Source of the DNA: Steroidobacteraceae bacterium
GTDB taxonomy: Bacteria; Pseudomonadota; Gammaproteobacteria; Steroidobacterales; Steroidobacteraceae
NCBI GenBank assembly: GCA_019634915.1
Contig: JAHCAN010000004.1
Coordinates: 1-64,000, forward strand
Direction: 5' to 3'
Length of the DNA: 64,000 nucleotides
The notes beneath the pieces are model-generated. The model was not told where the DNA came from. It made no database searches and saw only the letters and a program-made list of their open reading frames with translations. Shown one piece after another: positions 6,875-21,821 of this stretch; the first letter of the stretch is position 1, and every line of letters begins with the position of its first letter. Made by a program: the position numbers and the translations under genes.

Positions 6875-8062
6875 TTACTCCTTGCGCAGGCGTGCGCCGA
6901 TGCGGCGGTACGCCTCGCGAAACGGGATGCTTTCCTTCACCGCGAGCGCATTCGCTTCCTCGGCGGCGTGGATCGCCGGATCGAGCGTGATGTTCGCGGG
7001 CAGGAAGTGTACCGCGCCGAGCGCGGCCGCCATGACGTCGAGCGTCTGCAGGGCAGTATCGATGCCGCGAAACAGCGGCGCCTTGAGCAGCTGCAGGTCG
7101 CGCTGGTAGCCCGACGGCAGTTTCGCGAACACGCCGAGCGCCTCGACGAGACCGGCGTGCGCCGCGGCGGTGCGGCCGCGCACCAGCTCGAACACGTCGG
7201 GGTTGCGCTTCTGCGGCATGATCGACGAGCCGGTCGTGAACGCCTCGGGCAGCGCGACGAACGCGAACTCCTGCGTATAGAAAAGCAGCAGGTCGGCGGC
7301 GAGTCGGCCGAGGTCCTGCATCACGAGCGCGATCTCGAACAGCAGCTGCGCCTCGGCCTTGCCGCGCGAGAGCTGCACGGCGGTCACCGGTTCGTGCACG
7401 GCCGCGAAGCCGAGCGCCGCGCGCGTCGCGTCGCGGTCGATCGGCAGGCCGGGCGTGCCGTAGCCAGCCGCCGAGCCGAGCGGGCTCCGGGCCGTGCGCC
7501 GGTGCGCGAGCCGCAGCCCCTCGGCGTCATCGCGCAGTTCGGCGGCGAAGCCGCCAGCCCACAACGCAACCGTGCTCGGCATCGCCTGCTGCATGTGGGT
7601 GTAGCCGGGCAGCGCCGTGGCACCCTCGCGCGCGGCGAGCGCATCGAGCGCCTCGGCGACCTGCAGTGCGCCGGCGCGCAGCTGCTCGATCGCATCGCGC
7701 AGGTAGAGCCGCAGCGCGGTGAGCACCTGGTCGTTGCGCGAGCGGCCGAGGTGCACGCGTCCGCCGGCCTCGCCGATGCGTGCGGTGAGCCGTTTCTCGA
7801 GCGCGGTCTGGCCGTCCTCGTCGGCGAGCTCGACTCGCCACTCGCCGCGCGCATGGGCTTCGCCGAGAGCGGTCAGGCCGTCGCGGATCGCCGCGAAGTC
7901 GGCGTCCGACAGCAGCTTCTGCGCATGCAGCATCGCCGCGTGCGCGATCGAGGCGGCGACGTCGTAGCGCACCAGGCGCTCGTCGAGCGCGTAGTCCTCG
8001 CCCGCGGTGTAGGCGAGGACACGCGCGTCGAGCGGCGCGCCCTTGTCCCAGAGCGTGGTCAC
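6875..8062 (-). CDS. argH: Argininosuccinate lyase
   Basis: Last step of arginine synthesis: argininosuccinate to arginine and fumarate. A 395-residue fumarase/aspartase-superfamily protein with HLGRSRNDQV (about 103-112), the catalytic-loop region and the signature GSSIMPQKRNPD (about 278-289). It starts at a GTG whose last bases overlap the argB stop (GTGA). The protein ends shortly after the segment SIPFREAYRRIG, so the usual C-terminal subdomain of about 60 residues is absent; it looks complete because its TAA is followed by a coupled gene. It is the last recognisable arg gene of the operon. Confidence 0.93.
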   Translation of the reverse strand: MTTLWDKGAPLDARVLAYTAGEDYALDERLVRYDVAASIAHAAMLHAQKLLSDADFAAIRDGLTALGEAHARGEWRVELADEDGQTALEKRLTARIGEAGGRVHLGRSRNDQVLTALRLYLRDAIEQLRAGALQVAEALDALAAREGATALPGYTHMQQAMPSTVALWAGGFAAELRDDAEGLRLAHRRTARSPLGSAAGYGTPGLPIDRDATRAALGFAAVHEPVTAVQLSRGKAEAQLLFEIALVMQDLGRLAADLLLFYTQEFAFVALPEAFTTGSSIMPQKRNPDVFELVRGRTAAAHAGLVEALGVFAKLPSGYQRDLQLLKAPLFRGIDTALQTLDVMAAALGAVHFLPANITLDPAIHAAEEANALAVKESIPFREAYRRIGARLRKE

Positions 8063-8994
8063 GCGCCCTGGGCCTGCTGCTCGGCGACGCTGAGCGCGTT
8101 GATGTCGGCGACGATCAACGTGCCGGTCCCCTCGTTGGTGAACACCTCCGCGAGGATGCTCTCGGGCGACGTGTACGCGATCACGTGCACGCGCCGCACG
8201 CCGCCGCGGATCGCGTCCTCGATCGCCTTCGCCTTCGGCAGCATGCCGTCCTGGATGCTGCCGTCGTCGCGCAGCCGCTTCAGGCCGCGCAGGTCGGTGT
8301 ACGAGATCACCGACGTCGGGTCCTCCACACGCTCGAGGATGCCCGGCGCGCCGGTGCACAGGATCAGCTTCTCGGCGGCGAGCGCCGCGCCGACCGCCGC
8401 GGCGACGGTGTCCGCGTTGATGTTCAGCAGCGTGCCGCCGGCGTCGGCCGACAGCGGGCTGACGACCGGCATCAGGCCGTTGTCGAGAAGCTTGCGCAGC
8501 ACGGTCGTGTCGACCGAATCGATGTCGCCGACGAAGCCGAAGTCGACCGTCTCGCCATTGTCCATCTTCACCGCCGGTCGCCGGTGCGCGGTGACGAGCC
8601 CGGCATCGACGCCGCTGACGCCGACCGCATCGATGTTGAGGTCGCGGCAGATGCCGAGCACGCGCGTGTTGATCAGGCCGTTCAGCACCATCGCCGTGAC
8701 GTCGATCGAGCGCTGGTCGGTGATGCGCCGGCCCTGCACCATGCGGGTCGGCACGCCGAGCGCCTCGGTCAGCTCGGTCAGTTGCGGGCCGCCGCCGTGC
8801 ACGAACACGACGCGCACGCCGAAGTAATGCAGGATCGCGATCTGCTCGATCAGCGCGCGCGTGGCTTCCGCGTCGCCGAACACGGCGCCGCCCGCCTTGA
8901 TCACGAAGGTCTTGCCCTTGTACATGCGGATGTACGGCGCGGCGCTGCGCAGCGAGCGCACGGCGAGGGCCTGGTCGGCGCGGTGCTTGATCAT
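8059..8994 (-). CDS. argB: N-acetylglutamate (N-acylglutamate) kinase
   Basis: Phosphorylates N-acylglutamate, the second step of arginine synthesis. A 311-residue amino-acid-kinase-fold protein with the nucleotide/substrate loops FVIKAGGAVF, FVHGGGPQL and GRRITDQRSIDV, and the C-terminal ATP-site segment QDGMLPKAKAIEDA. There is no C-terminal GNAT domain, so it is not the bifunctional synthase/kinase found in Xanthomonas. An N-terminal extension of about 20 residues precedes the kinase core, as in arginine-inhibited NAGKs, but regulation cannot be confirmed. It starts 20 bases after argF' and overlaps the start of argH. Confidence 0.93.
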   Translation of the reverse strand: MIKHRADQALAVRSLRSAAPYIRMYKGKTFVIKAGGAVFGDAEATRALIEQIAILHYFGVRVVFVHGGGPQLTELTEALGVPTRMVQGRRITDQRSIDVTAMVLNGLINTRVLGICRDLNIDAVGVSGVDAGLVTAHRRPAVKMDNGETVDFGFVGDIDSVDTTVLRKLLDNGLMPVVSPLSADAGGTLLNINADTVAAAVGAALAAEKLILCTGAPGILERVEDPTSVISYTDLRGLKRLRDDGSIQDGMLPKAKAIEDAIRGGVRRVHVIAYTSPESILAEVFTNEGTGTLIVADINALSVAEQQAQGA

Positions 8995-9014: not shown

Positions 9015-10010
9015 TCAGGAAAGCATGCGATGCAGGACCGCCATCTGCGCGGTCATGCGGTTGTAGGCCTCGCGCTGCACGATGCTGCGCGGGCCGTCGA
9101 GCACGGCGTCGGTGACCGCGACATTGCGGCGCACCGGCAGGCAGTGCATGAACCGGCAGGCGGGGTCGGCCCTGCCGAACCAGTCCGGCGTCACGCACCA
9201 GTCGGCGAGTTTCGCGCGCAGCTTCGCGTCGCCTTCGGCGTCGCCGTAGTGCGTCGTCGAGCCCCATTCCTTCGCGTACAGCACGTGCGCGCCGGCGAGC
9301 GCGTCGTCGCGCTCGCTGGTCTCGCGCACCGAGCCGCCGGCCGCGTCGGCCGCGGCGCGCGCCTTCGCGATGATCGCCGGCGGCAGCGCGTAGCCCTCGG
9401 GCCGCAGCACGACGACTTCCATGCCGCGCATCGCGGCCATGTGCACGGCGGCGGCGGGCACCGCGAGCGGCAGCGCGCGCGGATGCGACACCCAGGACAG
9501 CACGAACTTGCCGTGCTGGGGCACCGCGAGATCGTCCATCGTCTTCCAGTCGGCGAGCGCCTGGCACGGATGGTTCATCGCCGACTCGAGGTTCAGCAGC
9601 GGCTTGTCGATCACTTCGGCCATCGCCGCGAAGCGCGTCTCGGCGAGATCGGCCGCGAGATCCCTGCCCTCGGCGAACGCGCGGATGCCGAGTGCGTCGC
9701 AGTACGAGGCGAGCACCGGCAGGCCCTCGCGCACGTGCTCCGCGGCGGCGCCGTCCATGATCGCGCCGAGGCGCGTCTCGAGCTGCCAGGTACCCTGGCC
9801 GGGCGTGATCACGAACGAGCTGCCGCCGAGGCGCGCCATGCCCGCCTGGAACGACGCGAGCGTGCGCAGCGACGGATTGAAGAACACGAGGCCGAGGATG
9901 CGCCCGGCGAGCGCGCGCGGCTCGGGATGCGTCTCGAGGCGGCGCGCGAGTTCGAGCAGCGCGACGATGTCGTCGCGGCTGAAGTCGGCGAGGTCGAGGA
10001 AGCGATGCAT
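9015..10010 (-). CDS. argF': N-acyl-L-ornithine carbamoyltransferase (acetyl/succinyl class)
   Basis: Transfers carbamoyl from carbamoyl phosphate to an N-acylated ornithine, giving N-acyl-citrulline. A 331-residue protein with the carbamoyl-phosphate loop FFNPSLRT (43-50), HPCQALAD (about 152-159), SWVSHPRALPLAVP and HCLPVRRN. These features, plus TWQLETRLGAIMDG (74-87), match AOTCase of Xanthomonas and SOTCase of Bacteroides and not ordinary OTCase, which has HPTQ-type and DxxxSMG motifs. The residue that sets acetyl (Glu92, X. campestris) versus succinyl (Pro90, B. fragilis) specificity aligns with Ala90 here. Overall the sequence looks closer to the Bacteroides enzyme. Acyl group undetermined. 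Confidence 0.88.
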   Translation of the reverse strand: MHRFLDLADFSRDDIVALLELARRLETHPEPRALAGRILGLVFFNPSLRTLASFQAGMARLGGSSFVITPGQGTWQLETRLGAIMDGAAAEHVREGLPVLASYCDALGIRAFAEGRDLAADLAETRFAAMAEVIDKPLLNLESAMNHPCQALADWKTMDDLAVPQHGKFVLSWVSHPRALPLAVPAAAVHMAAMRGMEVVVLRPEGYALPPAIIAKARAAADAAGGSVRETSERDDALAGAHVLYAKEWGSTTHYGDAEGDAKLRAKLADWCVTPDWFGRADPACRFMHCLPVRRNVAVTDAVLDGPRSIVQREAYNRMTAQMAVLHRMLS

Positions 10011-10024
10011 GCGGGGCCCGCGCG

Positions 10025-11152
10025 CTACAGCGCCGCGAGCGCCTCCTTCAGCAGATCGACGTGCGCCTCGCGCAGCACGTAGGGCGGCAGCAGCCGCAGC
10101 ACCTGCGGATCCGCGCTCGTGCCGGTCAGGATGTCGCGCCCGAGCAGTGCCGCCTGCACTTCCTGCGCGGGCCGCGACAGGCGCAGCCCGAGCAGCAGGC
10201 CCGCGCCCTGGAAACCAGTCACCGGGCCGACGCGGCATTGCGCGCGCATGTAGTCCGACACGCGCCGCACGTTGCCGAGCAGGTCTTCGCTCTCGATCGC
10301 CTCGATCACGGCCTCGATTGCCGCGCAGGCCATCGGCCCGCCGCCGAACGTCGTGCCGAGCGTTTCCATCTTCACTGCGGCCGTCACACGCGGCGCCATC
10401 AGCAGCGCGGCACACGGAAAGCCGTTGCCGAGCGCCTTCGCCGTCGTGATCATGTCGGGCCGCACGCCGTAGAGGTCGGCGGCGAACGCGCGACCGCTGC
10501 GGCCCATGCCACACTGCACTTCGTCGAAGATCAGCAGTGCGCCGACCTCGTCGCAGCGCCGGCGCAGCGCAGCGAGGAATTCCGTGCCCATGTCGAACGC
10601 GCCGCCGACGCCCTGGACCGGCTCGACGATCACGGCGGCCGTGTCATCGGTCACGTGCTGCGCGATCGCGGCCGTTTCACGCCGCGGGATCCACGCGACG
10701 TCGAACGGCGTGCGCGGATACGCGTGCCACTTCTCGCGCGCGCCCCAGGTCACGGCACCGGCGGCGGCGGTGCGGCCGTGGAAGGCGCCCTCGACCGCGG
10801 CGATCTGCGGCCGCGCGGTCATCCGGAACGCCATCTTCAGCGCATTCTCGTTGGCCTCGGCGCCGCTGTTGACGAAGAACACGCTGTCGTAGCCGCCGCC
10901 GGCGAAGGCGAGCAGGCGCGCGCCGGCGCGCTCGCGCACCGCCATCGGCACCGCGTTGCTCTGGAACTGGCAGGCGGCCGCCTGCGTCTGCAGCGCGCGC
11001 GTCCAGCCCGGATGGCCGTAGCCGAGCGCCGCGACCGCGTGGCCGCCATAGAGATCGAGCACGCGGCGCCCGTCGCGCGAATGCAGCCACACGCCTTCGG
11101 CGTGCTCGACTTCGAACGGGTACTGCGCGAAGACCGGCGCGAGCGCGCTCAT
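10025..11152 (-). CDS. argD: N-acylornithine aminotransferase
   Basis: PLP-dependent class III aminotransferase, fourth step of arginine synthesis. The 375-residue product has NSGAEANENALKMA (PLP phosphate binding), FDEVQCGMGRSG (Asp contacting the pyridine ring) and TTAKALGNGFP with the Schiff-base Lys. The start ATG at 11152 overlaps the argC stop (ATGA); an upstream in-frame start would lie inside argC and is less likely. argF' follows after 14 bases. It may use acetyl- or succinyl-ornithine, since ArgD enzymes commonly accept both. Confidence 0.93.
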   Translation of the reverse strand: MSALAPVFAQYPFEVEHAEGVWLHSRDGRRVLDLYGGHAVAALGYGHPGWTRALQTQAAACQFQSNAVPMAVRERAGARLLAFAGGGYDSVFFVNSGAEANENALKMAFRMTARPQIAAVEGAFHGRTAAAGAVTWGAREKWHAYPRTPFDVAWIPRRETAAIAQHVTDDTAAVIVEPVQGVGGAFDMGTEFLAALRRRCDEVGALLIFDEVQCGMGRSGRAFAADLYGVRPDMITTAKALGNGFPCAALLMAPRVTAAVKMETLGTTFGGGPMACAAIEAVIEAIESEDLLGNVRRVSDYMRAQCRVGPVTGFQGAGLLLGLRLSRPAQEVQAALLGRDILTGTSADPQVLRLLPPYVLREAHVDLLKEALAAL

Positions 11153-12216
11153 GTCCAGCCCGCCGCGGGTGCCGTCAGGCCGGCGGTTTCCGGCAGGCCG
11201 AACAGGCGGTTCATCCATTGCACGGCACCGCCGGCCGCACCCTTGTTCAGGTTGTCGACGACACAGGTCACCGCGACGGTGCGGCCGTTGGCCGCCGCGG
11301 TGAGGCGTGCGTAGTTGCTCGCGGCGACGTCCTTGACGTGCGGCGCCCCGGCGTCGACCTGCACGAACGGCGCGCCGCGGTAGAAGTCGCGAAACGCGCC
11401 GAGCACCTCGTCGCCGCTGCGCGGCGTCTTCAGCATCGCCTGCACGGTCACGTGGATACCGCGCGCGAATGGCCCGGAATGCGGCACGAACGCGAACTCG
11501 GCGGCGACGCCGCTCGCGAGCTGCGCGCAGGCCGCGATCTCGGGCGTGTGGCGGTGCGCGAGCGGGTTGTAGGCGTAGAAATCGGAGTGGCGCTGCGGGT
11601 GATGCGTGCCCTCGACCGGTTTGCGCCCGGAGCCGGTGCTGCCGGTCACGCCGGCGACGAACAGCGTCGGCTCGACGAGATCGAGCGCGAGCAGCGGCAC
11701 GCAGGCGAGCAGCGTCGCGGTCGAGAAGCAGCCCGGATGCGCAACGTGCCGGGTCGGCGCGCGCGCGAGGTGTTCCGGCACCGCGCAGATGAACTGTGCG
11801 AGGCGCGCCGGTGCGCCGTGCGCATGCCGGTACACGGCCGTGTAGGCGTCGGCGCTGCGATAGCGGAAGTCGGCCGAGATGTCGACGACGTGCGCATCGA
11901 CGCCGGCGGCCTCGGCGCGCGCGAGCAGCGCGTCGATCAGCGCCGCCGACACGCCGTGCGGTGCGGCGCCGAAGATCGCGACGCGCGGCAGGCCCGCGAG
12001 CAGCGCTTCGATTTGCGCCTGTGCGCTGAACTTCAGCTCGCCGAGTACCGGCGCCAGATGGCGAAATGCGTTCGCGACCGGCTCACCGGGCTGGCTGTCG
12101 GAGAGGACGCCGGCGAGATCGAAATGCGGATGGGCGGTGAGCAGGCGCAGCAGCTCGCCGGACACATAGCCGGTGCCACCGAGCACGATCGCCGGGATGC
12201 GCGCTGTATCGCTCAT
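11149..12216 (-). CDS. argC: N-acyl-gamma-glutamyl-phosphate reductase
   Basis: NADPH-dependent reduction of N-acylglutamyl phosphate to the semialdehyde. The 355-residue product begins with the dinucleotide-binding motif GGTGYVSGELLRLL (about 14-27) and has the catalytic Cys in HVAHPGCFSTATLLA (about 155-169), then GVTGSTGSGRKP. The chain is of the longer argC subtype. It overlaps the upstream P-loop gene and the downstream argD gene by four bases each, so it is translated as part of a tightly coupled string. Confidence 0.94.
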   Translation of the reverse strand: MSDTARIPAIVLGGTGYVSGELLRLLTAHPHFDLAGVLSDSQPGEPVANAFRHLAPVLGELKFSAQAQIEALLAGLPRVAIFGAAPHGVSAALIDALLARAEAAGVDAHVVDISADFRYRSADAYTAVYRHAHGAPARLAQFICAVPEHLARAPTRHVAHPGCFSTATLLACVPLLALDLVEPTLFVAGVTGSTGSGRKPVEGTHHPQRHSDFYAYNPLAHRHTPEIAACAQLASGVAAEFAFVPHSGPFARGIHVTVQAMLKTPRSGDEVLGAFRDFYRGAPFVQVDAGAPHVKDVAASNYARLTAAANGRTVAVTCVVDNLNKGAAGGAVQWMNRLFGLPETAGLTAPAAGWT

Positions 12217-13292
12217 CCGGCGAGCGCTTTCGCGGGCTTTGCGTGCAGGCCGACGGCCTCGATCAGATGATCGCCGAGCGCCACGCCCGAGCTGAGCGCG
12301 TTGAAGGCGGCGACCTGCATCTGCTCGCGGATGATGTCGACGCCGACCGCGTTGTCGGTCGCGGGGCCGGTGACCGCGCAGGGCTCGATGCCGAAGCGCT
12401 CGCGCAGCAATCGCACGCCGCCCCAGGCCGCGACCGGGTCGTTGGCCGAGAGCACGACCGCGGTGAGCACGCGGCGGATGTCCTCGCAGCCGAGGATCGA
12501 GTCGACGCCGTAGGTGCCCATCAGGCCGTCACCGAGCTCGAACACGATCACGTCCGGGCGCGCCGACGACAGCTCCGTGAGCATCGTGCGCGTCAGCGCC
12601 GGGCCGGTGCCCGGTGTCGTCGTGATTACGCCGAGGTCGGTGAAGATCATCGTGTTGCGCGCGCCGGCGTCGGCCATCGCGAGGATGTCACGGCGCAGCG
12701 AGACGCCGGTCGCCTTGAACGCATCGACGACGAGGCCGCGATGGCGCATGCGGCTGACGATCGAGCAGGCCGCCGCGGTCTTGCCGGCCTCCATGCAGGT
12801 GCCGGCGAGCGCGATGACCGGCACGCCGTGCGCATCGAGCGGCGCGTCGAAATCGAGCCGGCGTATGCCGGCGCGCGCCGGCACGCCGATGCGCTCGCCG
12901 AGGTAGGGGAACTGCAGCACGACGCCGAGCACGCGGCAGTCGAACGGCTTGCCCTTGTCGGGATTGACCGAATCGCAGATGCCGAGCACGCCGCCGATGT
13001 TGAGCATCTGGATCACATCGCCGGCCTGCAGCGACTCGGGCACATGCCCGGAGTAGCCGAACAGCGCCTTCCTGTGTCCGAGCGCGCCGACCACGATGTC
13101 GCCCTTGCCGAGCTTGGCCATGCGGCCGCTCGTCAGCTCGAGCGTGTTGTAGTTCGCCTTGTTGGTCAGCACCTCGACGACGATGATCACGCCTTCCTCG
13201 GACGGGATATCGGTCGAGATGCGCAGCTCGTGCGACAGGCCGGCGGCCTGCGTGACCGAGGCGATCTTGTCGACGACGACGGACTTCATCAT
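12213..13292 (-). CDS. Uncharacterised P-loop protein embedded in the arginine operon
   Basis: A 359-residue protein of unknown function, ATGA-coupled to argG upstream and argC downstream. Residues 1-145 look beta-rich, with KGDIVVGALGHRKALFGYSG (about 63-82). From about 157 there is a P-loop fold with GTCMEAGKT (164-172), whose GT-x4-GKT spacing is that of dethiobiotin synthetase (GTDTxVGKT) and DUF1611 proteins, then DAFKATG (190-196) and DVIVFELGDGLMGTYG (247-262), which by eye parallel the DUF1611 C-terminal domain. One characterised DUF1611 protein, DgcN, N-acetylates D-glutamate, so a role as acylglutamate synthase or in acyl-group handling is a hypothesis only. Family assignment is by eye. 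Confidence 0.75.
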   Translation of the reverse strand: MMKSVVVDKIASVTQAAGLSHELRISTDIPSEEGVIIVVEVLTNKANYNTLELTSGRMAKLGKGDIVVGALGHRKALFGYSGHVPESLQAGDVIQMLNIGGVLGICDSVNPDKGKPFDCRVLGVVLQFPYLGERIGVPARAGIRRLDFDAPLDAHGVPVIALAGTCMEAGKTAAACSIVSRMRHRGLVVDAFKATGVSLRRDILAMADAGARNTMIFTDLGVITTTPGTGPALTRTMLTELSSARPDVIVFELGDGLMGTYGVDSILGCEDIRRVLTAVVLSANDPVAAWGGVRLLRERFGIEPCAVTGPATDNAVGVDIIREQMQVAAFNALSSGVALGDHLIEAVGLHAKPAKALAG

Positions 13293-14506
13293 TTGCCTGC
13301 ACTCCGTGCGAGCGCGCCGGCGCGCGTGTGGAACACGCCGGGCAGCGCGACCAGCTTCGAGAAACCGAGCGCGTCGGCGGCGGACCACTCGCCGGCCGCC
13401 TCGCCGTACACGCCTTTCGATGCGGCCAGCAGCGACCAGGGCGAGGAGACGCCCTCGACGAACAGGTTCCCCGGGCGCAGCAGCACGCGCACGCTGCCGG
13501 TCACGCGCGCCTGCGAGGACAGCAGCAGCGCCTCGATGTCGCGGCACACCGGATCGAGCAGCTGGCCCTCGTGCACGAGGTCGCCATAGGGCTGCGCGAC
13601 CGACTCCTTGATGCGCTGCTGGCGCGCGGTCAGCACCAGCTTCTCGAGCTCGCGGTGCGCGGTGAGCAGCAGCTCGGCCCCCGGGGCCTCGAATGCGACG
13701 CGCCCCTTGGTGCCGATGATCGTGTCGCCGAGATGGATGCCGCGACCGATGCCGAACGGTGCCGCGAGCGCCTCGAGCGTCTCGATCACCTCGACCGGCG
13801 CGAGCGGGCGGCCGTCGACGCCGACGGGGCGGCCGGCTTCGAACTCGATCGTGTGCTGCTCGGGCGCGCGCGGCGTCGTGAAGGCGCCCTTCGACAGCAC
13901 CCACTGCTCCTCGGGGATGCTGCCGTCGGAGGTCAGCGTCTCCTTGCCGCCGATCGTGACGCCCCAGAGGCCGCGGTTGATCGAATACGCGGCGCCGGAC
14001 GGCGGCACCGGCAGCCCGCGCGCCTGCAGGTACTCGAGCTCCTCCTGGCGCTTGAACGCCTTGTCGCGCACCGGCGCGATGATCTCGAGTTCGGGCGCGA
14101 GCGTGCGCAGCGCGACCTCGAAGCGCACCTGGTCGTTACCGGCCGCGGTGCAGCCGTGGGCGATGCTGCGCGTGCCGAGCTTCCCGGCCATGCGCGCGAT
14201 CGTCTGCGCCTGCATCACGCGCTCGGCGCCGACGCACAGCGGGTAGAGCTGGCCGCGCCGCACGTTGCCCATGATCAGGAAGCGCAGCACCTGCTCGAAG
14301 TAATCGGCGCGCGCATCGACCTGGTGATGCTCGACCGCGCCGAGCGCGAGCGCGCGCTGCTCGAGCGCGCGCGCGGCGCCGGCGTCGATGCCGCCGGTGT
14401 CCACCGTGACGGTGATCACGGGGCGTCCGTACTGCTCGGCCACCCAGGGCACGAGGAACGAGGTGTCGAGTCCGCCCGAGTAGGCGAGGACGATGGGCTG
14501 GGTCAT
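13289..14506 (-). CDS. argG: Argininosuccinate synthase
   Basis: ATP-dependent condensation of citrulline and aspartate. The 405-residue protein starts with the PP-loop LAYSGGLDTSFLVPWV (about 7-22), followed by the citrulline/aspartate-binding segments GNVRRGQLYPLCVGAER and SIAHGCTAAGNDQVRFE, and GLWGVTIGGKE. It is the first enzyme gene after argR (nine-base gap) and overlaps the P-loop gene by four bases. Citrulline would be supplied by deacylation of the argF' product, for which no gene is seen here. Confidence 0.95.
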   Translation of the reverse strand: MTQPIVLAYSGGLDTSFLVPWVAEQYGRPVITVTVDTGGIDAGAARALEQRALALGAVEHHQVDARADYFEQVLRFLIMGNVRRGQLYPLCVGAERVMQAQTIARMAGKLGTRSIAHGCTAAGNDQVRFEVALRTLAPELEIIAPVRDKAFKRQEELEYLQARGLPVPPSGAAYSINRGLWGVTIGGKETLTSDGSIPEEQWVLSKGAFTTPRAPEQHTIEFEAGRPVGVDGRPLAPVEVIETLEALAAPFGIGRGIHLGDTIIGTKGRVAFEAPGAELLLTAHRELEKLVLTARQQRIKESVAQPYGDLVHEGQLLDPVCRDIEALLLSSQARVTGSVRVLLRPGNLFVEGVSSPWSLLAASKGVYGEAAGEWSAADALGFSKLVALPGVFHTRAGALARSAGK

Positions 14507-14515
14507 GGGTATGGG

Positions 14516-14974
14516 TCAGATCTTGAAGAGGGAGCGGAGACGCCGCCCGAGCGCGGCCTGGTCGCGCGCGTTCGCGGTGGCGATGAAGATCGTGTCGTCA
14601 CCGGAGATCGTGCCGACGACCTCCGGCCAGTTCGCCTGGTCGATCGCCAGCGCAACGCTTTGCGCCGCGCCGATGTTGGTGCGCAGCACCGTGAGCGCGG
14701 GGCCGGCAACGCGCAGGCTGCGCACGAAGCCCGCGAGCGCCGCGAAATCGCCGCCGGCGGGCCGCGCCTCCCCGGCGGGCAGCACGTAGCCGTCGGCCGC
14801 CTTCAGCACGCCGATCTCGCGCAGGTCGCGGCTGACCGAGGACTGCGTGACCGCATGTCCCTGCGAGCGCAGCAGGCGCACGAGGTCGGCCTGCTTGCGC
14901 ACGCTGCCGCCGCGCAGCAGCCGGGTGATGGCGCTGCGGCGTTCGTGCTGGTTGTGGTCCTGGCTCTGCTGCAT
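14516..14974 (-). CDS. argR: Arginine repressor
   Basis: A 152-residue ArgR. The N-terminal winged helix has the recognition-helix motif [16 protein letters not shown] (about 43-58); the C-terminal domain carries [14 protein letters not shown] (about 119-132), the arginine-binding and hexamerisation motif with the Asp pair. It is the first gene of the operon and its start codon lies within the nearer of two ARG boxes, so it should repress itself and the whole arg operon when arginine is plentiful. Only one Met is available at the N-terminus, which supports the 14974 start despite the very short predicted leader. Confidence 0.93.
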
Positions 14975-15263: not shown

Positions 15264-16532
15264 CTACTGGAGGCGCTCCGGGAGCCATAGCGACAACGGA
15301 GGAAAGAGAGTCACCAGCGCAAGCAGTATCAGGAGCAGGGCCACGAACGGGATGAAGCCGCGCATGACTGTTGCGATCGGTAGTTGCGACACGCTCTTCA
15401 TTACGAAGAGATTCAGGCCTACCGGCGGCGTGAGTGCCGCCAGCTCCATGTTGACGACGACTACGATCGCGTAGTGAACGGGATGGATCCCGAGCGGACC
15501 AAGCAATGGAAGCACGATCGGCAGGGTGATCAGGATCGTCGAGATGATCTCGAGGAACATGCCGAGGACGAACATCACGAGATTCATGGCCAGAAGGAAC
15601 TGCAGCGGCGTCACGCCGCTTTGCTGGAACCAGCTGACGAGCCGCTCGGCGACTCCGGACAGGACGATCCAGTGGCCCAGCAGAACGGCGACACCGACCA
15701 GGATCAGGATGGCGGAGGCCGCGATCACCGCATCGCCGACCCATGCGAGGATCCTGAGCCCGCGGCACGTGCCGTTGAGCACGCAGATCACGATGGCGAC
15801 CAGGGCCGCCAGTGCAGAGGCTTCGCTCAGCGTCACGATGCCGGAGTAGATGCCTCCCAGCGCGACGATGGGCACGAGCATCGCCGGGATGACTTCGTAT
15901 GTCAGGCGGAGCTTCTCCCGCAACGGCAGGCGCTTCGGAGGCACGATCAGCTGCATGCGCCGCGTCACGAAGAGTATCCAGACGATGAACAGTGCACCCT
16001 GGATGAGCCCGGGGATCAACCCGGCGACGAAGAGCTTGCGTACGGACACTTCGGCGATCAGGCTGAATACGATCAGTGCGAGACTTGGCGGCAGAAGGAT
16101 GCCGAGCGTCGCCGACGCGCCCACGAGCCCGGCGCTGAAGCGGGCCGGGTAGCCACGTTGTGCGAGGGCGGGCAGCAGGATCGTGCCGAGAGCCAGCGCC
16201 GTCGCGGTGGATGATCCGGATACCGATGCGAACAGCGCTGCGGCAGCGACAGCGACTATTGCGACGCCGCCGCGAAAGCCGCCGATCCACGCCTCGGCGG
16301 CATTGACGAGGGCTGCGGCCATGCCCCCGCGTTGCATGAAGGTCGCGGCGGTCACGAAGAACGGGATCGCCGTCAGTGTGCTGGAGTTGAGCCGGTCGAC
16401 GAGTATCTGCGCTATGCCGCCGAGGCCGTGTCCCTCGACGAACAACAATGACGTCGCGGTAACGCCGAGTGCCAGGAACACGGCCGTGCCGGTCGCAATC
16501 AGGCCAAGCAACAACGCGAGCATGGTGATCAT
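15264..16532 (-). CDS. dctM: TRAP transporter large permease subunit (DctM)
   Basis: The 422-residue, roughly 12-helix membrane component that carries out Na+-coupled substrate translocation. It is hydrophobic throughout, with SSTATALALGTILLPAL and a second half containing GMFLEIISTILITLPIVLP and TPPVGLNLFV, the typical DctM repeat signatures. It overlaps dctQ by four bases and is the last gene of the leftward maoC-dctP-dctQ-dctM unit. TRAP systems usually import C4/C5 dicarboxylates and related acids, which fits the neighbouring CoA-dependent pathway genes. Confidence 0.93.
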   Translation of the reverse strand: MITMLALLLGLIATGTAVFLALGVTATSLLFVEGHGLGGIAQILVDRLNSSTLTAIPFFVTAATFMQRGGMAAALVNAAEAWIGGFRGGVAIVAVAAAALFASVSGSSTATALALGTILLPALAQRGYPARFSAGLVGASATLGILLPPSLALIVFSLIAEVSVRKLFVAGLIPGLIQGALFIVWILFVTRRMQLIVPPKRLPLREKLRLTYEVIPAMLVPIVALGGIYSGIVTLSEASALAALVAIVICVLNGTCRGLRILAWVGDAVIAASAILILVGVAVLLGHWIVLSGVAERLVSWFQQSGVTPLQFLLAMNLVMFVLGMFLEIISTILITLPIVLPLLGPLGIHPVHYAIVVVVNMELAALTPPVGLNLFVMKSVSQLPIATVMRGFIPFVALLLILLALVTLFPPLSLWLPERLQ

Positions 16533-17032
16533 TGCTGCCGGCGTTCCCGTGTGGCCGGGCCCGACATCGTGCGCGCCACCGTCAACAGGCGGACGGCGTA
16601 GCCGACCAGCATCAGAGCCATGCCGACTGGCATGGCGGCGTAGTAGAGCGCCAGTGGCAAGCCCAGCGTGCTTTCACTGCGCTCCCCGGTGGCGATCGAG
16701 AGAAGAACGATCCGCAGCCCCGCATAGCCCATCGCGAGCGTAAAGAGGATGCCGACGATCGCGTGGAACATCTCGAACGCGTGTTGCGCGCGCGGGCCAA
16801 GCCGCTCGACCAGAAATTCCGCGCGGATGTGGCCTCCGCGCCGTGCCAGGCTCCCGGCCGCCAGCCACAGCGCCCAGACACTCAGGTACACGACGACTTC
16901 CTCGCCCCAGTCGGGCGCGGCGGACGGATACAGATATCGCGCTGCCGTCGAATAGCCCGCCATGACGATTGCCAGCAACCCGAGCGCTCCGATGCCCAGC
17001 TGTTCGAACGGCATGGCGGGCGTCGTCTTCAC
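16529..17032 (-). CDS. dctQ: TRAP transporter small permease subunit (DctQ)
   Basis: A 167-residue four-helix membrane protein that pairs with DctM. Segments at about 12-32, 47-64, 90-110 and 130-152 are hydrophobic, and WGEEVVVYLSVWALWLAAG with RRGGHIRAEFLVERL is the family signature. Both ends are coupled by four-base overlaps: to dctP upstream and dctM downstream. Confidence 0.92.
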   Translation of the reverse strand: MKTTPAMPFEQLGIGALGLLAIVMAGYSTAARYLYPSAAPDWGEEVVVYLSVWALWLAAGSLARRGGHIRAEFLVERLGPRAQHAFEMFHAIVGILFTLAMGYAGLRIVLLSIATGERSESTLGLPLALYYAAMPVGMALMLVGYAVRLLTVARTMSGPATRERRQQ

Positions 17033-18066
17033 GGCGTATCTGCCTCTTCCTGCGCGGCCGCCAGCAGGCTTCGGGCGAGTTCGACGACATCCGCCGGTAA
17101 CCGCAACTGCTGCACGAGCCGCGGCTCGAACTGCAGCAGGCGCTCCCGTTCAGAGCGCGCTTCGGCTTCGGACAGAGAGCGAACCCGGATACCGTGATCG
17201 ACGGCAATCTCCCGGGCTCTCAGCTGGCGCTGCGCCGCGAGCTCGCGTGCATCGAGCATCGTCTCCCGCCATGCCTTGATGAACCGCGCCTGCGTATCCG
17301 GGTCCAGCCTCTCCCAGAACTCGCGGCGCACGAGCGGCATGTACTGCATGAACATGCTGCGCTCGACGAGGCCGTGACGAATGCCGACCTCCCAGAGCGA
17401 GCCGCTCTGCAGCGTCTCGAAGGATGTGGCCACGGCATCGATGTTCCCCTGGGACAGCCCCAGCGGGACGTCGGACCAGGGGATCGCGACCGGGCTCGCG
17501 CCCTGAAGACGAAACATCCGCAAAGCGGCCGCGCCCCCCGGTACCCGCACCTTCAGCCCGGCGAGGTCCGCGGGACTGGCCAGCGGGCGGCGGGTGCTGA
17601 AGACATTGATGTATCCCAGATCGAGGTTCGGGGCGAGAACCTTGACCGCCAGCCGCGCTTCCACCCGGTCGGCTACTGCCGCACCGAGCGGGCCGTCGAG
17701 CACGTGATGCAATACCTCGCGGGCCCGGCCGTAGAACATGGGCAGCGACGTGACGTTCGCGGCGGGCTCGAATCGCGCGACATACAGCGCCGTGGGCAGC
17801 GCCAGATCGACGTCACCCCACATCAGCGCCTTGATGACGTCGCGATCGCTGTAGAGCTGCCCCGAATCAAAGAGCCTGACGTTGAAGCGACCGGGCAGCT
17901 CGGCATCCAGCCGCTCGGCAAAATTGCGGACGACGTGGGTCCGAAGATGGTTCGGACCCGTATCGAGACTGATGCGCAGCTCCCGGGCGCCCTCTCCGGG
18001 CGGCGTCGCCGCCATTGCGAATGCACCGGCGGCAGTCAGTACGAGACCGGCGGCGATGCTGCGCAT
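17029..18066 (-). CDS. dctP: TRAP transporter periplasmic substrate-binding protein (DctP)
   Basis: A 345-residue extracytoplasmic solute receptor. A signal peptide (about 1-20, AGAFAMAA) is followed by the DctP fold with FAERLDAELPGRFNVRLFDSGQL, ADLAGLKVRVPG (the conserved carboxylate-binding Arg region) and PLGLSQGNIDAVATS. Ligand specificity cannot be read off, but an acidic substrate is expected. It lies 27 bases downstream of the MaoC-like gene on the same strand, tying import to CoA-ester hydration. Confidence 0.92.
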   Translation of the reverse strand: MRSIAAGLVLTAAGAFAMAATPPGEGARELRISLDTGPNHLRTHVVRNFAERLDAELPGRFNVRLFDSGQLYSDRDVIKALMWGDVDLALPTALYVARFEPAANVTSLPMFYGRAREVLHHVLDGPLGAAVADRVEARLAVKVLAPNLDLGYINVFSTRRPLASPADLAGLKVRVPGGAAALRMFRLQGASPVAIPWSDVPLGLSQGNIDAVATSFETLQSGSLWEVGIRHGLVERSMFMQYMPLVRREFWERLDPDTQARFIKAWRETMLDARELAAQRQLRAREIAVDHGIRVRSLSEAEARSERERLLQFEPRLVQQLRLPADVVELARSLLAAAQEEADTP

Positions 18067-18093
18067 GTCGATGACCCCGCGGCTGCAAGCCGT

Positions 18094-18615
18094 TCAGTAT
18101 GCAGCGTCGTCGTAGGGTTCGTGGCCGCGAAGATAGACGAGAAACGTCCGCGTGAACTCGCAGAAGACCGTGCCGTGCTGGTTCGTCCCGCGTGTCTTTA
18201 CCGTCACGAGCCCGTTGCCGGGCCGTGATTTCGACGGCCTCTTGTCCAGCACCTCGCTTTCGGAGTAGAGCGTGTCACCGCCGAACACCGGGCTCAGCAT
18301 GCGGATATCGGTCATGCCGAGATTCGCGGCGACCCGCCCGAAGGTCTTGGTCGTCATCGCGATGACGATGCCCAGTGACAGCGTGGTCACGACGAGGGGC
18401 TTGCCGAACTCGGTTCGCGATGCGTAGATCTCGTCGAAGTGGATGGCGGCCTGGTTGAGCGTCTGCATGCAGTGCAACGCATTCTCCGACTGATAAACGG
18501 TGCGGCCGGGCCGGTGCTGGAAGACCATTCCCGGTTCGAGATCCTCGTAGTCGACGCCGTTGCGCTCGCGATAGACGTTGTCGCCGATCTTCACATGTGA
18601 ATAGAAACTGTGCAC
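18094..18615 (-). CDS. MaoC-family enoyl/mesaconyl-CoA hydratase
   Basis: A 173-residue hotdog-fold hydratase. The first half has GMVFQHRPGRTVYQSENALHC, and the C-terminus LVYLRGHEPYDDAAY resembles mesaconyl-CoA and itaconyl-CoA hydratases of the MaoC type. The chosen start is a GTG at 18615, preceded by GGGGG about nine bases upstream and followed directly by the family-like HSFYSHVKIGDN; the reading frame stays open upstream but into implausible sequence. It heads the leftward operon with dctPQM and is divergent from the CoA-transferase gene, sharing its control region. A role hydrating an unsaturated C5 acyl-CoA is inferred from context. Confidence 0.82.
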   Translation of the reverse strand: MHSFYSHVKIGDNVYRERNGVDYEDLEPGMVFQHRPGRTVYQSENALHCMQTLNQAAIHFDEIYASRTEFGKPLVVTTLSLGIVIAMTTKTFGRVAANLGMTDIRMLSPVFGGDTLYSESEVLDKRPSKSRPGNGLVTVKTRGTNQHGTVFCEFTRTFLVYLRGHEPYDDAAY

Positions 18616-18678
18616 TGGTACTGCCCCCGTCCATGTCGCGGCCGGGCCAGGCACGGCTCGCGAAGATGGGCTATTCTT

Positions 18679-18696
18679 ATCCGGACATCCGGACAC
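18679..18696 (-). promoter_or_regulatory. Putative GntR operator O1
   Basis: On the minus strand GTGTCCGGATGTCCGGAT: two head-to-tail TGTCCGG units, each part of a TCCGGA palindrome, in the middle of the 142-base divergent region between the hydratase and CoA-transferase genes. It matches O2 (21699-21716) at 15 of 18 positions and shares its core with O3 (21822-21837). Confidence 0.6.
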
Positions 18697-18757
18697 GTCA
18701 ATCCCGTGCGGTGCCGCGGTATCCGGGCGCGCGCGCATCGCGGAAGGCCACAGCAGC

Positions 18758-19957
18758 ATGCTGCCATTGCAGAACGTACGCATCGTTGCCGTCGAACAGT
18801 ACGGCGCGGGGCCCATCGGTACGCTGTACCTCGCGAGCCTCGGGGCGGAGATCATCAAGATCGAGAATCCCCGGGACGGCGGCGATGTCTCGCGCAGCGT
18901 CGGCCCGCATTTCGTGGGCGGGGTGGAGCGTTCGGCGGCCAGCCTGTTCTTCCAGGGGCTCAATCACAACAAGAAGAGCCTGAGTCTGGATCTTTCCCGG
19001 GACGAAGGTCGCTCGGTGCTGCATCGACTCGTCGCCGGTGCGGATGCCCTGGCGTCCAATCTGCGCGGTGACGTGCCGGCCAGGCTCGGGATCACGTATC
19101 CGCAGCTTGCCGCGCACAACCCGCGGCTGGTCTGTGCGCACCTGACTGCCTATGGTCGGGAGGGGCCGCGGGCGGCGTGGCCGGGCTATGACTTCATGAT
19201 GCAGGCCGAGGCGGGGTATTTCACGCTGACCGGCGAGCCGGACGGGCCGCCCACGCGTTGCGGCCTGTCGGTCGTGGACTTCATGACGGGCCTCGCCATG
19301 GCATTCGGCCTGACCGCGGCACTGGTGGACGCACGCCAGACGGGCATCGGCCGCGACATCGACGTGAGCCTGTTCGACGTCGCCTTGTTCAATCTCAACT
19401 ACGTCGCCACGTGGTTCCTGAATGCGAACGTCGCGCCGCAACGGGCGCCGAGGTCGGCGCACCTGTCCCTGACTCCATGCCAGTTGTACCGTACCCGGGA
19501 CGGTCACATCTACCTGATGTGCAACAAGGAGAAGTTCTGGGAGTCGCTGTGTGACGAGATCGGGCATCCCGAATGGAAGGAGGATCCGCGCTTCGCCAGC
19601 TATGCCGCCCGTCTCGAGAACCGGGAGCAACTGACCCGGTTGCTGGACGCCGTGCTGGCCGGCCACGCGACGGCCGACTGGCTGGCTCGCTTCAAGGGGA
19701 AGGTGCCGGCGGCTCCCGTGCTCGATGTCCCGCGGGCTCTGGAAAATCCGTTCGTTGCGGACAGCGACCGGATTCAGCGCGTGCCGCTGACCGGAGACTC
19801 GGCCATCAAGGTCCTGCGCTCTCCGATCCGCTGCGAAGATCCCCCACCGACGCCGACCGCGGCGCCCCGGCTCGGCGAGCATACCGACGACATTCTGCAG
19901 TCCTTGGGTTACGATTCGGCCGCCATTGCGGAGTTGCGACGAAAAGGGACGATCTGA
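18758..19957 (+). CDS. Class III (CaiB/BaiF) CoA-transferase
   Basis: A 399-residue family III CoA-transferase, which moves CoA between carboxylic acids through an aspartyl-CoA intermediate. It begins with PLQNVRIVAVEQYGAGP, has the N-terminal family segment LASLGAEIIKIENPRDGGD (about 27-45) and LNHNKKSLSLDL, and the active-site stretch AWPGYDFMMQAEAGYFTLTG (about 141-160). Itaconate CoA-transferase of Pseudomonas and mesaconate/succinyl-CoA transferases belong here. Context (TRAP importer, hydratase, CitE-like lyase) makes it the probable activating step of a C5 dicarboxylate route. The GntR gene follows on the same strand. Confidence 0.92.
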   Translation: MLPLQNVRIVAVEQYGAGPIGTLYLASLGAEIIKIENPRDGGDVSRSVGPHFVGGVERSAASLFFQGLNHNKKSLSLDLSRDEGRSVLHRLVAGADALASNLRGDVPARLGITYPQLAAHNPRLVCAHLTAYGREGPRAAWPGYDFMMQAEAGYFTLTGEPDGPPTRCGLSVVDFMTGLAMAFGLTAALVDARQTGIGRDIDVSLFDVALFNLNYVATWFLNANVAPQRAPRSAHLSLTPCQLYRTRDGHIYLMCNKEKFWESLCDEIGHPEWKEDPRFASYAARLENREQLTRLLDAVLAGHATADWLARFKGKVPAAPVLDVPRALENPFVADSDRIQRVPLTGDSAIKVLRSPIRCEDPPPTPTAAPRLGEHTDDILQSLGYDSAAIAELRRKGTI

Positions 19958-20068
19958 CAGGCCATGTGTGAGGCCGGCGGGCGAACCCGGGGTTTCGCAG
20001 GGCAGGTCCAGAACAAGGTCGGGCTCCAGCAAGAGGTACGCATTCAGCATGTTTCCGGTGGTCTGCCA

Positions 20069-20839
20069 ATGACTCCGCCTGCCATCCGGCTTCGAGGTTC
20101 ACAGCCGCTGTACATGATGGTGGCCGCGCGTCTGGCCGCGGGCATTGCCGAAGGGAAGTATCCCGTGGGCTCGCGGATGCCCTCCGAGGGCGCGCTGTGC
20201 GAGCAGTTCAACGCCAGTCGATTCACCATCCGGGAAGCGATCAAACGGCTGCAATCGCTGGGTCTCGTCGACACGCGGCAGGGCACGGGTACCGAAGTGC
20301 TGTCGCGGCAGCCTACCGGCGGGCGTTTCGTCTACTCGTTCGATTCGGTGCAGGACTTTCGCCACTCGGTAGGCCAGTCGAGGCTCATCAACATCACCGG
20401 CAAGAAGGTCATCGCCAACCAGGGCATGGCCGACCAGATGCGCTGCCCGGTTCGTACACCGCTGTTCCGCCTCGAGGCGACCCGCGTCCTGCTGACCCGT
20501 GCGGGTCGCGCGGGCAAGCCCGTTGCGCTGTCGACGGTGCTGCTGCCCGCCGCGTACGCCGGCATCCTCGATGAACTGCCGCATTACGACCAGACGATCA
20601 GCGATCTGCTCGAGCAGCGCTACGGCGTGCAGACCGCGTCCATCGAACAGATCATCGAGCCCTGCATGTTCAGCGCGAAGGATGCAGGCAAGCTCGGCGT
20701 CAAGCCGGGCAGCCTCGGCCTGCGGTTCCAGCGCACCTACCTCGATCCGGGTGGTGAGGTCTTCGAGTACGCCATCAGCCTGCAGGCCGGGAACGAGGCG
20801 CGGCTGTCGATGACGATCCGCGCGAACATCTCCCGTTAA
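20069..20839 (+). CDS. GntR-family regulator with UTRA domain (HutC-type)
   Basis: A 256-residue transcription factor. The N-terminal winged helix has LYMMVAARLAAGIAEGKYP, PSEGALCEQFNASRFTIRE and GLVDTRQGTGTEV (about 13-80). The C-terminal UTRA ligand-binding domain spans about 100-250, with the late segment GLRFQRTYLDPGGEVFEYA. The ATG at 20069 places the helix at the usual distance from the N-terminus; an in-frame ATG at 19964, seven bases after the CoA-transferase stop, would add 35 atypical residues. It is likely the local regulator of the C5-acid genes, and perhaps of the TonB receptor unit, through the TGTCCGG-type sites. It converges on the CitE-like gene with a 3-bp overlap. Confidence 0.88.
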   Translation: MTPPAIRLRGSQPLYMMVAARLAAGIAEGKYPVGSRMPSEGALCEQFNASRFTIREAIKRLQSLGLVDTRQGTGTEVLSRQPTGGRFVYSFDSVQDFRHSVGQSRLINITGKKVIANQGMADQMRCPVRTPLFRLEATRVLLTRAGRAGKPVALSTVLLPAAYAGILDELPHYDQTISDLLEQRYGVQTASIEQIIEPCMFSAKDAGKLGVKPGSLGLRFQRTYLDPGGEVFEYAISLQAGNEARLSMTIRANISR

Positions 20840-21690
20840 CGGGCTTGCGCTGCCTCCCACAGCCGAAGCTGCCTGCGGGCCGAGTTGACGACCGGCAGAT
20901 CGATCATGCGGCCCCTGAACTGGCACGCGCCCGACCCGGCGGCCTCGAAAGCCGCGATCAGCTCACGCGCCTGCAGCGCCTGCCCTTCATCGGGCGCGAA
21001 AGCGGCATGCACGTCTGCGATCTGTTTTGGATGTACGCAGGTTTTTCCCGTATAGCCCAGTGCGGCTGACCGCCGTGTCTCGGATACCAGGCCTTCGCGG
21101 TCATCGAATTGCAGCCATGCGCCGTCGATCGCAGCCACTCGCGCCCTGCCTGCGGCCTGAACGAGCTGCAATCGCGCCAGCAGCAACGGCTCCCAGTCCA
21201 TGGCCACGCCCATATCGGCCGCGAGGTCGGCTGTCCCGAGGCCGAGCAGTTCGACGCCCGCCGCCATCGCCAGGCTCTCCAGCCGCGACAGTCCTGCGAG
21301 CGTTTCGACGAATGGTGCGATCCCCGGCGCCGGGCGGGACTCACCCAATAGTCCGGATACCCAGACGACCTCTTCCGCCGATTCGACCTTGGGCAGAACG
21401 ACCAGGTCGGGATATGCGCCCGACTGCGCCAGTTGCAGCAAGTCGCGGGTTCCGGTCTGCGTCTTCAATGCATTGATCCGCACCGCGATCTCGCACGCCG
21501 GGCGATTGTTCGCGAGAAATTCGAGTACGCAGGCTCGTGCCGCCGGTTTGTCCGGGCCGGGGACTCCGTCCTCCAGGTCGAGGCACACGATGTCAGCCCC
21601 GCTCGCGATCGCCTTGCCGAAGCGATCGGCCCGGTGGCCGGGAACGAAAAGCAGGCTGCGGCGCAGCCCCGTCTGTTGCGCGCGTGTCAT
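20836..21690 (-). CDS. CitE-like acyl-CoA lyase (HpcH/HpaI family)
   Basis: A 284-residue TIM-barrel lyase of the CitE/malyl-CoA/citramalyl-CoA lyase group. It opens with RRSLLFVPGHRADRFGKAI (about 9-27), has the metal-binding IVCLDLEDGVPGPDK (about 34-48) with ESAEEV and later acidic residues, the conserved RVAAIDGAWLQFDD, and GYTGKTCVHPKQI. With the class III CoA-transferase and MaoC hydratase it completes the three-enzyme set that converts itaconate to pyruvate and acetyl-CoA in Pseudomonas and Yersinia; substrate identity is inferred. The ATG at 21690 lies nine bases from operator O2. Confidence 0.9.
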   Translation of the reverse strand: MTRAQQTGLRRSLLFVPGHRADRFGKAIASGADIVCLDLEDGVPGPDKPAARACVLEFLANNRPACEIAVRINALKTQTGTRDLLQLAQSGAYPDLVVLPKVESAEEVVWVSGLLGESRPAPGIAPFVETLAGLSRLESLAMAAGVELLGLGTADLAADMGVAMDWEPLLLARLQLVQAAGRARVAAIDGAWLQFDDREGLVSETRRSAALGYTGKTCVHPKQIADVHAAFAPDEGQALQARELIAAFEAAGSGACQFRGRMIDLPVVNSARRQLRLWEAAQAR

Positions 21691-21698
21691 CGGCGAAA

Positions 21699-21716
21699 TT
21701 GTCCGGTTGTCCGTAT
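21699..21716 (+). promoter_or_regulatory. Putative GntR operator O2
   Basis: TTGTCCGGTTGTCCGTAT, two direct TGTCCG units, 9-26 bases upstream of the CitE-like gene start. It matches O1 at 15 of 18 positions. Confidence 0.55.
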
Positions 21717-21821
21717 CAGTCTGAGTATCGGCGGCTGAAACTCTCCCGGTCAACACGGCGTCGTGCCGCGGTCGATCGGCGGTTCGCGTCGGCCGTCCGG
21801 TGCGCACCGCTTGACTTCTCT

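Follow-up and report, generated by a model that had tools for sequence, protein, structure and literature searches.

The arginine operon and its unassigned gene

The window, a stretch of 64,000 nucleotides from a Steroidobacteraceae genome, carries an arginine operon on its minus strand in the order argR, argG, X, argC, argD, acylornithine carbamoyltransferase, argB, and argH. X denotes here the gene, and its protein product, to which no known arginine enzyme corresponds. The features of the operon and the basis on which each was named are as follows.

14516..14974, minus strand: argR, arginine repressor (PF02863 and PF01316 above cut-off)
13289..14506, minus strand: argG, argininosuccinate synthase, in ATGA overlap with X (TIGR00032 above cut-off)
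12213..13292, minus strand: X, candidate N-acyl(succinyl)glutamate synthase of a P-loop family (sequence, family searches, conservation, fold)
12777..12803, minus strand: P-loop GTCMEAGKT, X residues 164-172 (sequence and alignment)
11149..12216, minus strand: argC, N-acyl-glutamyl-phosphate reductase, in ATGA overlap with X (TIGR01850 above cut-off)
10025..11152, minus strand: argD, acylornithine aminotransferase (PF00202 above cut-off; in NCBIfam closest to acetylornithine transaminase, though short of that model's cut-off)
9015..10010, minus strand: acylornithine carbamoyltransferase, predicted N-succinylornithine type (NF003384 above cut-off; residues A-P-A)
9741..9743, minus strand: carbamoyltransferase Ala90, equivalent to X. 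campestris Glu92 (alignment)
9468..9470, minus strand: carbamoyltransferase Pro181, equivalent to X. campestris Asn185 (alignment)
9117..9119, minus strand: carbamoyltransferase Ala298, equivalent to X. campestris Lys302 (alignment)
8059..8994, minus strand: argB, acylglutamate kinase without a fused NAT (TIGR01890, kinase part only, positions 2-280; genome without PF04768)
6875..8062, minus strand: argH, argininosuccinate lyase with a short C terminus (TIGR00838 above cut-off)

X is a real open reading frame of 359 codons plus a stop, as an earlier, sequence-only reading of this DNA had it. That reading described X as coupled to both neighbors, and we confirmed both ATGA overlaps: the start of X, ATGATG, encloses the argG stop (TGA, 13289-13291), and the argC ATG at 12216 overlaps the TGA that ends X (12213-12215). 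Its observation that the operon has no recognizable acylglutamate synthase or deacylase also held, as family searches for GNAT, ArgJ, and M20 genes found none in the operon. Of 39 other relatives, 31 have an X gene 59-90% identical to that of the window, and among 115 loci that match X strongly (fetched by two routes, near-identical loci included), 111 showed the argG-X-argC arrangement. The four exceptions comprised two contig ends and two loci in which argR adjoined X. Given this conservation and position, the gene is not a chance feature.

Three further observations concern the locus. The ArgH of the window (6875-8062) is short: of the 69-residue C-terminal domain ASL_C2 it matches a stretch of just ~26 residues, with a score under the cut-off. 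Outside the operon, positions 15264-21807 of the window hold genes that we named by eye as a TRAP-type transporter, a CoA-transferase-like protein, a MaoC-like hydratase, a CitE-like lyase, and a GntR regulator, perhaps a set for C5-dicarboxylate breakdown. Two contigs titled Klebsiella pneumoniae (L007 and L021; CAMCBU010000002.1 and CAMAQZ010000052.1) carry the X-type arg operon, with X 82% and 80% identical to that of the window, and their titles look like those of mislabelled metagenome bins.

Family searches and predicted fold of X

No Pfam or NCBIfam family matched X above its cut-off, in agreement with the earlier statement that it is no known arg enzyme. The sole Pfam match was DUF1611 (PF07755), at 15.5 bits against a cut-off of 25, where true members score 187-262 bits; the sole NCBIfam match was ProV, at 16.6 bits against a cut-off of 444. 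The DUF1611 N-terminal domain (PF17396, DUF1611_N, Rossmann-like) had no match at E ≤ 1, and the models show a beta-rich N-terminal domain in X. The DgcN equivalog NF041892 was unmatched at E ≤ 0.1, while the same library placed one DgcN-type protein (L197) above cut-off and a second (L196) just under it. X was likewise rejected as a dethiobiotin synthetase (no BioD model at E ≤ 1 in Pfam or E ≤ 0.1 in NCBIfam) and as a known N-acetylglutamate synthase (no GNAT, ArgJ, or PF04768 domain matched).

Across 31 X-family members scanned against Pfam at E ≤ 1, DUF1611 was found in 23 (best 1.9e-5), MobB in 18 (best 4e-4), and PF13500, like TIGR00347 a BioD family model, in one (0.012). The alignment of X with DUF1611/DgcN proteins by hhalign was weak (probability 21.5%). 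A PDB search with the single X sequence gave nothing at E ≤ 1, and a profile search gave chance-level matches to BioD, endolysin, and MobB. The window's genome also encodes a true DUF1611 protein on another contig (G000:C2:40732-41319; L189 and L195), so that X represents a separate family.

The AlphaFold2 model of X was confident (mean pLDDT 92.6, pTM 0.89). Foldseek against the PDB placed the dethiobiotin synthetase BioD (3of5) first, at E 7.2e-7, followed by HypB and SRP GTPases, with the DUF1611 protein 2obn at rank 23 (E 7.5e-5) among the best 50 of 131 matches at E ≤ 0.001. X is thus predicted to consist of a BioD-like P-loop core and an N-terminal beta domain, an assignment of fold class and not of enzyme identity. 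The beta domain, of ~130 residues, folds confidently on its own; it matched no PDB entry at E ≤ 0.001 and therefore gives no functional hint. All 26 arg-type X sequences aligned share G164, K171, T172, K193, D202, D219, D247, E252, and D285 without variation. The same residues are invariant in all five aligned paralogues, and so mark the wider family, not a role in arginine synthesis.

These results divide the earlier suggestion of a BioD/DUF1611 likeness: the P-loop core stood, by Foldseek, whereas membership of DUF1611 did not, with that family below cut-off, its N-terminal domain absent, and the DgcN model unmatched. BioD, an ATP-dependent carboxylase with a P-loop, is the best PDB fold match for the core, and its P-loop and following lysine align with those of X in a profile match at chance level (E 0.29). 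The two proteins are ~13-14% identical with a TM-score over the query of only 0.38, and X differs in its additional N-terminal domain and in its place in arginine operons. DgcN, reportedly described in the original work as a D-glutamate N-acetyltransferase, is labelled an N-acetyltransferase by NCBIfam. Its P-loop core is similar to that of X, with a short common stretch at the P-loop ending in F(K/R)ATG (BLASTP E 0.024), but two DgcN-type sequences have GKK and GKM where X has GKT. In the two loci that we typed DgcN adjoins the racemase DgcA, whereas X adjoins arg genes: one locus, from the window's family, has a DUF1611 gene next to a DgcA-type racemase (L196; DgcN 472.7 against a cut-off of 480, DgcA above cut-off), and the other, from another genome of the class, has a DgcN-DgcA pair with both above cut-off (L197). 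The enzyme name D-glutamate N-acetyltransferase also appears in the available text of PMC11747546.

Genome distribution of X and of known first-step enzymes

With the first acylation glutamate is committed to arginine, and feedback control of the pathway usually acts at this point. The window assembly (2.78 Mb, 58 contigs) is 78.6% complete, so absences in this genome alone prove little, and relatives were used. The set comprised 40 genomes including the window's own, from the best 80 of 311 relatives, and 33 of the 40 are at least 90% complete. X (at least 59% identity) was present in 32 of them and a kinase-fused NAT in six; none had both. The two with neither gave no argB-like match, which all 32 X genomes have. 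ArgJ was found in none of the 40, by a search that was positive in 10 of 14 control genomes, and ArgA was above cut-off in none, as compared with one of the 14 controls. PF04768 was found in 0 of 14 controls, and the relatives that it matched serve as its positive controls. Weak GNAT-region matches occurred in six of the 32 X genomes. The sequence-only reading had named, as what would refute it, a complete argA/argJ and argE elsewhere in the genome together with a fold match to an unrelated enzyme; of these genes, argA was not above cut-off, and argJ was not found, in the window's own genome or in the 39 relatives.

A sample of 296 genomes of the order gave the same picture, with X in 238 (E ≤ 1e-60), NAT in 22, and both in none. 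At this threshold 13 of the 251 genomes matching X, which had a weaker match alone, were not counted; five of these 13 carry NAT. The handles of 25 no-match genomes were deduced from gaps in the match list. Of the 36 genomes with neither X nor NAT, 29 had no argB-like match, and in the remaining seven the contig breaks off within the arg operon, either where X would stand or ahead of it; a truncated X is visible in two of the seven. ArgA was searched for in the 40 relatives, these 36 genomes, and six others, and ArgJ in the 40. Three genera in the order sample, g28, g31, and g64, were without X, NAT, and an argB-like match in 5/5, 7/10, and 9/10 genomes, while the rest of g31 (three genomes) and g64 (one) keep NAT; the pattern suggests loss of the X/NAT arginine route.

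The two operon types differ throughout, with the NAT-type argG 33-40%, argB 26-31%, and argC 26-31% identical to those of the window. The exclusion of X and NAT may therefore reflect replacement of the whole operon, and alone it does not tell which missing step X fills. One can then argue that each operon has to be complete, and where the NAT type has a synthase and a deacetylase, the X type has neither and has one extra gene, X. X and NAT are mutually exclusive in these genomes, and their distribution lends good support to the earlier proposal of a non-homologous first-step acyltransferase, with ArgA, ArgJ, and NAT sought in the window's genome and its 39 relatives.

We also considered that X might do no acyl chemistry and serve the arginine operon as a regulatory or accessory NTPase. 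SRP GTPases and HypB, a metal-chaperone NTPase, are among its fold matches, and its beta domain has no known match, all of which would suit such a protein. This role would, however, leave the first step without a recognized enzyme in the 32 relatives with X, in which ArgA, ArgJ, and NAT were sought, and it sits poorly with the strict separation of X and NAT over 296 genomes and with the lack of argB in most genomes that have neither (29 of 36); we regard it as quite improbable.

X beyond the window's order

Among 369 sampled genomes of the class, 20 gave a match to X at E ≤ 1e-20, of which five belong to the window's order, four are distant X proteins from other orders (44-47% identity), and 11 are weak paralogues. 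All four distant X genes sit among arg genes, and the three with enough sequence have an order different from that of the window, argD-carbamoyltransferase-argB-argH-argG-X-argC. In the four genomes the argB matches span the kinase part only and ArgA was above cut-off in none, with weak GNAT-region matches elsewhere in two; local tblastn found no NAT in the fetched stretches of the four. A plasmid search gave three distant matches of 26-30% identity.

Specificity residues of the carbamoyltransferase

The window carbamoyltransferase passes the NCBIfam N-acetylornithine model NF003384. In the available text of PMC4581275, acetylornithine enzymes have Glu92, Asn185, and Lys302 (X. campestris), and succinylornithine enzymes have A, S, P, V, or Q at the first position, P at the second, and V, I, or E at the third; the GapMind paper, in the part available, relies on the first of these positions, where it reads S, P, A, or V as succinyl (PMC7311316). 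The residue columns were set here by PDB alignment, in which entries differ mutually at positions 92 and 302. The window enzyme has A, P, and A, that is, two succinyl-type positions and a third, Ala, of neither type.

The same holds for most of its relatives. Among the 87 carbamoyltransferases associated with near X, 78 have A-P-A and nine A-P-V, and the three associated with distant X have P-P-E (two) or V-P-E (one). The seven NAT-type enzymes have E-N-K (six) or E-N-Q (one), keeping the first two acetyl-type residues in 7/7. At least two of the three succinylornithine-type residues were thus present in 90 of 90 X-associated enzymes, and all three in nine of the 87 near and all three distant ones. 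The third residue in the other 78 near-X enzymes falls outside V/I/E, yet is not the acetyl-type Lys. The 87 include near-identical loci; at 80% identity the set reduces to 34 near-X, seven NAT-type, and three distant representatives. NAT-type and distant-X enzymes formed clades of their own (support 1.00 and 0.998) in a tree that, being unrooted, does not show which state is older. These specificity residues suggest that the acyl group is probably succinyl rather than acetyl, and in this respect our reading departs from the acetyl chemistry of DgcN to which the earlier proposal had appealed.

In an acetylated pathway X would instead make N-acetylglutamate, as a new synthase with acetyl-CoA or with acetate plus ATP as its donor, and the Ala at the Glu92 position would be a product of lineage drift. 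The distribution of X against NAT, ArgA, and ArgJ speaks for this reading equally, the NCBIfam name of the carbamoyltransferase agrees with it, and so does the third-position Ala, which is not V, I, or E, in 78 of 87. Against this, every one of the 90 X-associated enzymes has Pro in place of Asn185 and one of A, P, and V in place of Glu92, which the near and distant lineages reach by different residues that all lie within the succinyl set, and none of 32 X genomes has an acetyl-type deacetylase above cut-off. We consider acetylation by X rather improbable.

Removal of the acyl group

The Xanthomonas-type deacetylase NF006439 was above cut-off in six of six NAT genomes and in none of the 32 X genomes, in which we recognized no dedicated deacylase. 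DapE, the M20 succinyl-diaminopimelate desuccinylase, was the best M20 match in all eight X genomes typed, at more than 500 bits; the typing covered these eight genomes, leaving out the fetched stretches L153 and L160. Five X genomes (G010, G013, G019, G025, and G034) have an untyped M20 match scoring 80-147 bits to the deacetylase model (cut-off 345), and in these genomes it could represent an additional deacylase. In L017 and L069, where argB and argH are separated by extra DNA, that DNA had no match to three M20 queries. In Bacteroides the candidate N-succinylcitrulline desuccinylase is a distant relative of DapE, according to the available text of PMC7311316. With DapE present in the typed X genomes and a DapE relative as the Bacteroides candidate, DapE is a reasonable candidate by analogy and may be the enzyme that removes the succinyl group.

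The lack of the Xanthomonas-type deacetylase leaves room for X itself as a deacylase, the second role offered by the sequence-only reading, or for a recycling enzyme that passes succinyl from N-succinylcitrulline to glutamate in an ArgJ-like cycle, the first acylation then falling to something unrecognized. X does also track the missing deacylase (NF006439 in 6/6 NAT and 0/32 X genomes). Against this role speak its P-loop core and the search results, in which neither a hydrolase family among its sequence matches nor a metallohydrolase among the best 50 of 131 fold matches was found. DapE could do the removal, and one group of paralogues ~30% identical to X adjoins its own M20 gene, so that this type at least does not replace a deacylase. 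Acyl removal by X has become the less likely of the two earlier suggestions, and we judge it unlikely.

A putative succinylated arginine pathway

On evidence that is computational throughout, X is most likely an arginine-pathway gene, from an unassigned P-loop family, that encodes the first enzyme, with succinyl the likelier acyl group. In its full form, to which we give slightly better than even confidence, the proposal is that X is an N-succinyl-L-glutamate synthase unrelated to GNAT and ArgJ enzymes, and that it opens an arginine pathway whose intermediates are N-succinylated. X would join succinyl to the amino group of L-glutamate; ArgB, ArgC, ArgD, and the succinylornithine-type carbamoyltransferase would take the acylated chain to N-succinylcitrulline; and a desuccinylase outside the operon, plausibly DapE, would strip the succinyl group ahead of ArgG and ArgH. 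X would in this way stand in, without kinship, for the GNAT-type enzymes (ArgA and the kinase-fused NAT) and for ArgJ.

From its fold and conserved residues X is predicted to bind ATP-Mg, and its acyl donor may be activated succinate instead of succinyl-CoA. We lean slightly towards ATP plus succinate as the donor because the core is of the BioD type, with acyl-phosphate chemistry, the GKT loop is intact, and K193, D219, and E252 are invariant. A more specific version, in which the P-loop family makes N-succinyl-L-glutamate from glutamate, succinate, and ATP, would amount to a CoA-free succinylated arginine pathway, standard in much of one gammaproteobacterial order, with DapE shared with lysine synthesis. 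This version is speculative, and we hold it as somewhat doubtful.

Two known systems come close. X. campestris works by the kinase-fused NAT acetyl route. The Xanthomonas-type NAGS/NAGK, argB fused to NAT (PF04768), is likewise the first step of an arg operon with the same kind of acylornithine carbamoyltransferase; it differs from X in that its GNAT-type domain is fused to the kinase and its pathway is acetylated, the carbamoyltransferase having Glu-Asn-Lys/Gln and the operon type a dedicated M20 deacetylase. ArgA2 of Bacteroides (BT3761) is, in the available text of PMC9026213 and PMC7311316, a proposed N-succinylglutamate synthase and would, like X, open a succinylated arginine pathway that has a succinylornithine carbamoyltransferase; ArgA2 belongs to the GNAT family, whereas X is a P-loop protein in Gammaproteobacteria. 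The other unrelated ArgA replacements proposed in the part of PMC9026213 available are the GNAT ArgA2 in Bacteroidetes and ArgA3, a relative of N-acetylcysteine deacetylase, in Veillonella and Dialister, and neither is described there as a P-loop protein. Our literature search, with subscription papers largely outside its reach, found no description of X.

If the proposal is true, X would supply the step missing from arginine synthesis in the sampled genomes that carry it, more than two hundred in number. Succinylated arginine synthesis, which the sources available to us treat mainly in Bacteroidetes, would extend to Gammaproteobacteria, and the acetyl-type annotation of the carbamoyltransferases in X operons would be corrected.

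Paralogues of X

Paralogues with ~30% identity to X lie at L180:7397-8476, L181:6961-8034, L184:466-1581, and L135:7719-8864. The L180 paralogue adjoins an ABC transporter gene (Pfam), next to which is a gene that is weakly alpha/beta-hydrolase-like, below cut-off. The neighbors of the L135, L181, and L184 paralogues resemble those of L180 by eye, and these clusters are uncharacterized. A second group, in L131-L134 and L183 (52-54% identical to the L133 member), is the one paired with an M20 gene, which is glutamate-carboxypeptidase-like; the pair in L131 has a flavin-reductase-like gene next to it.
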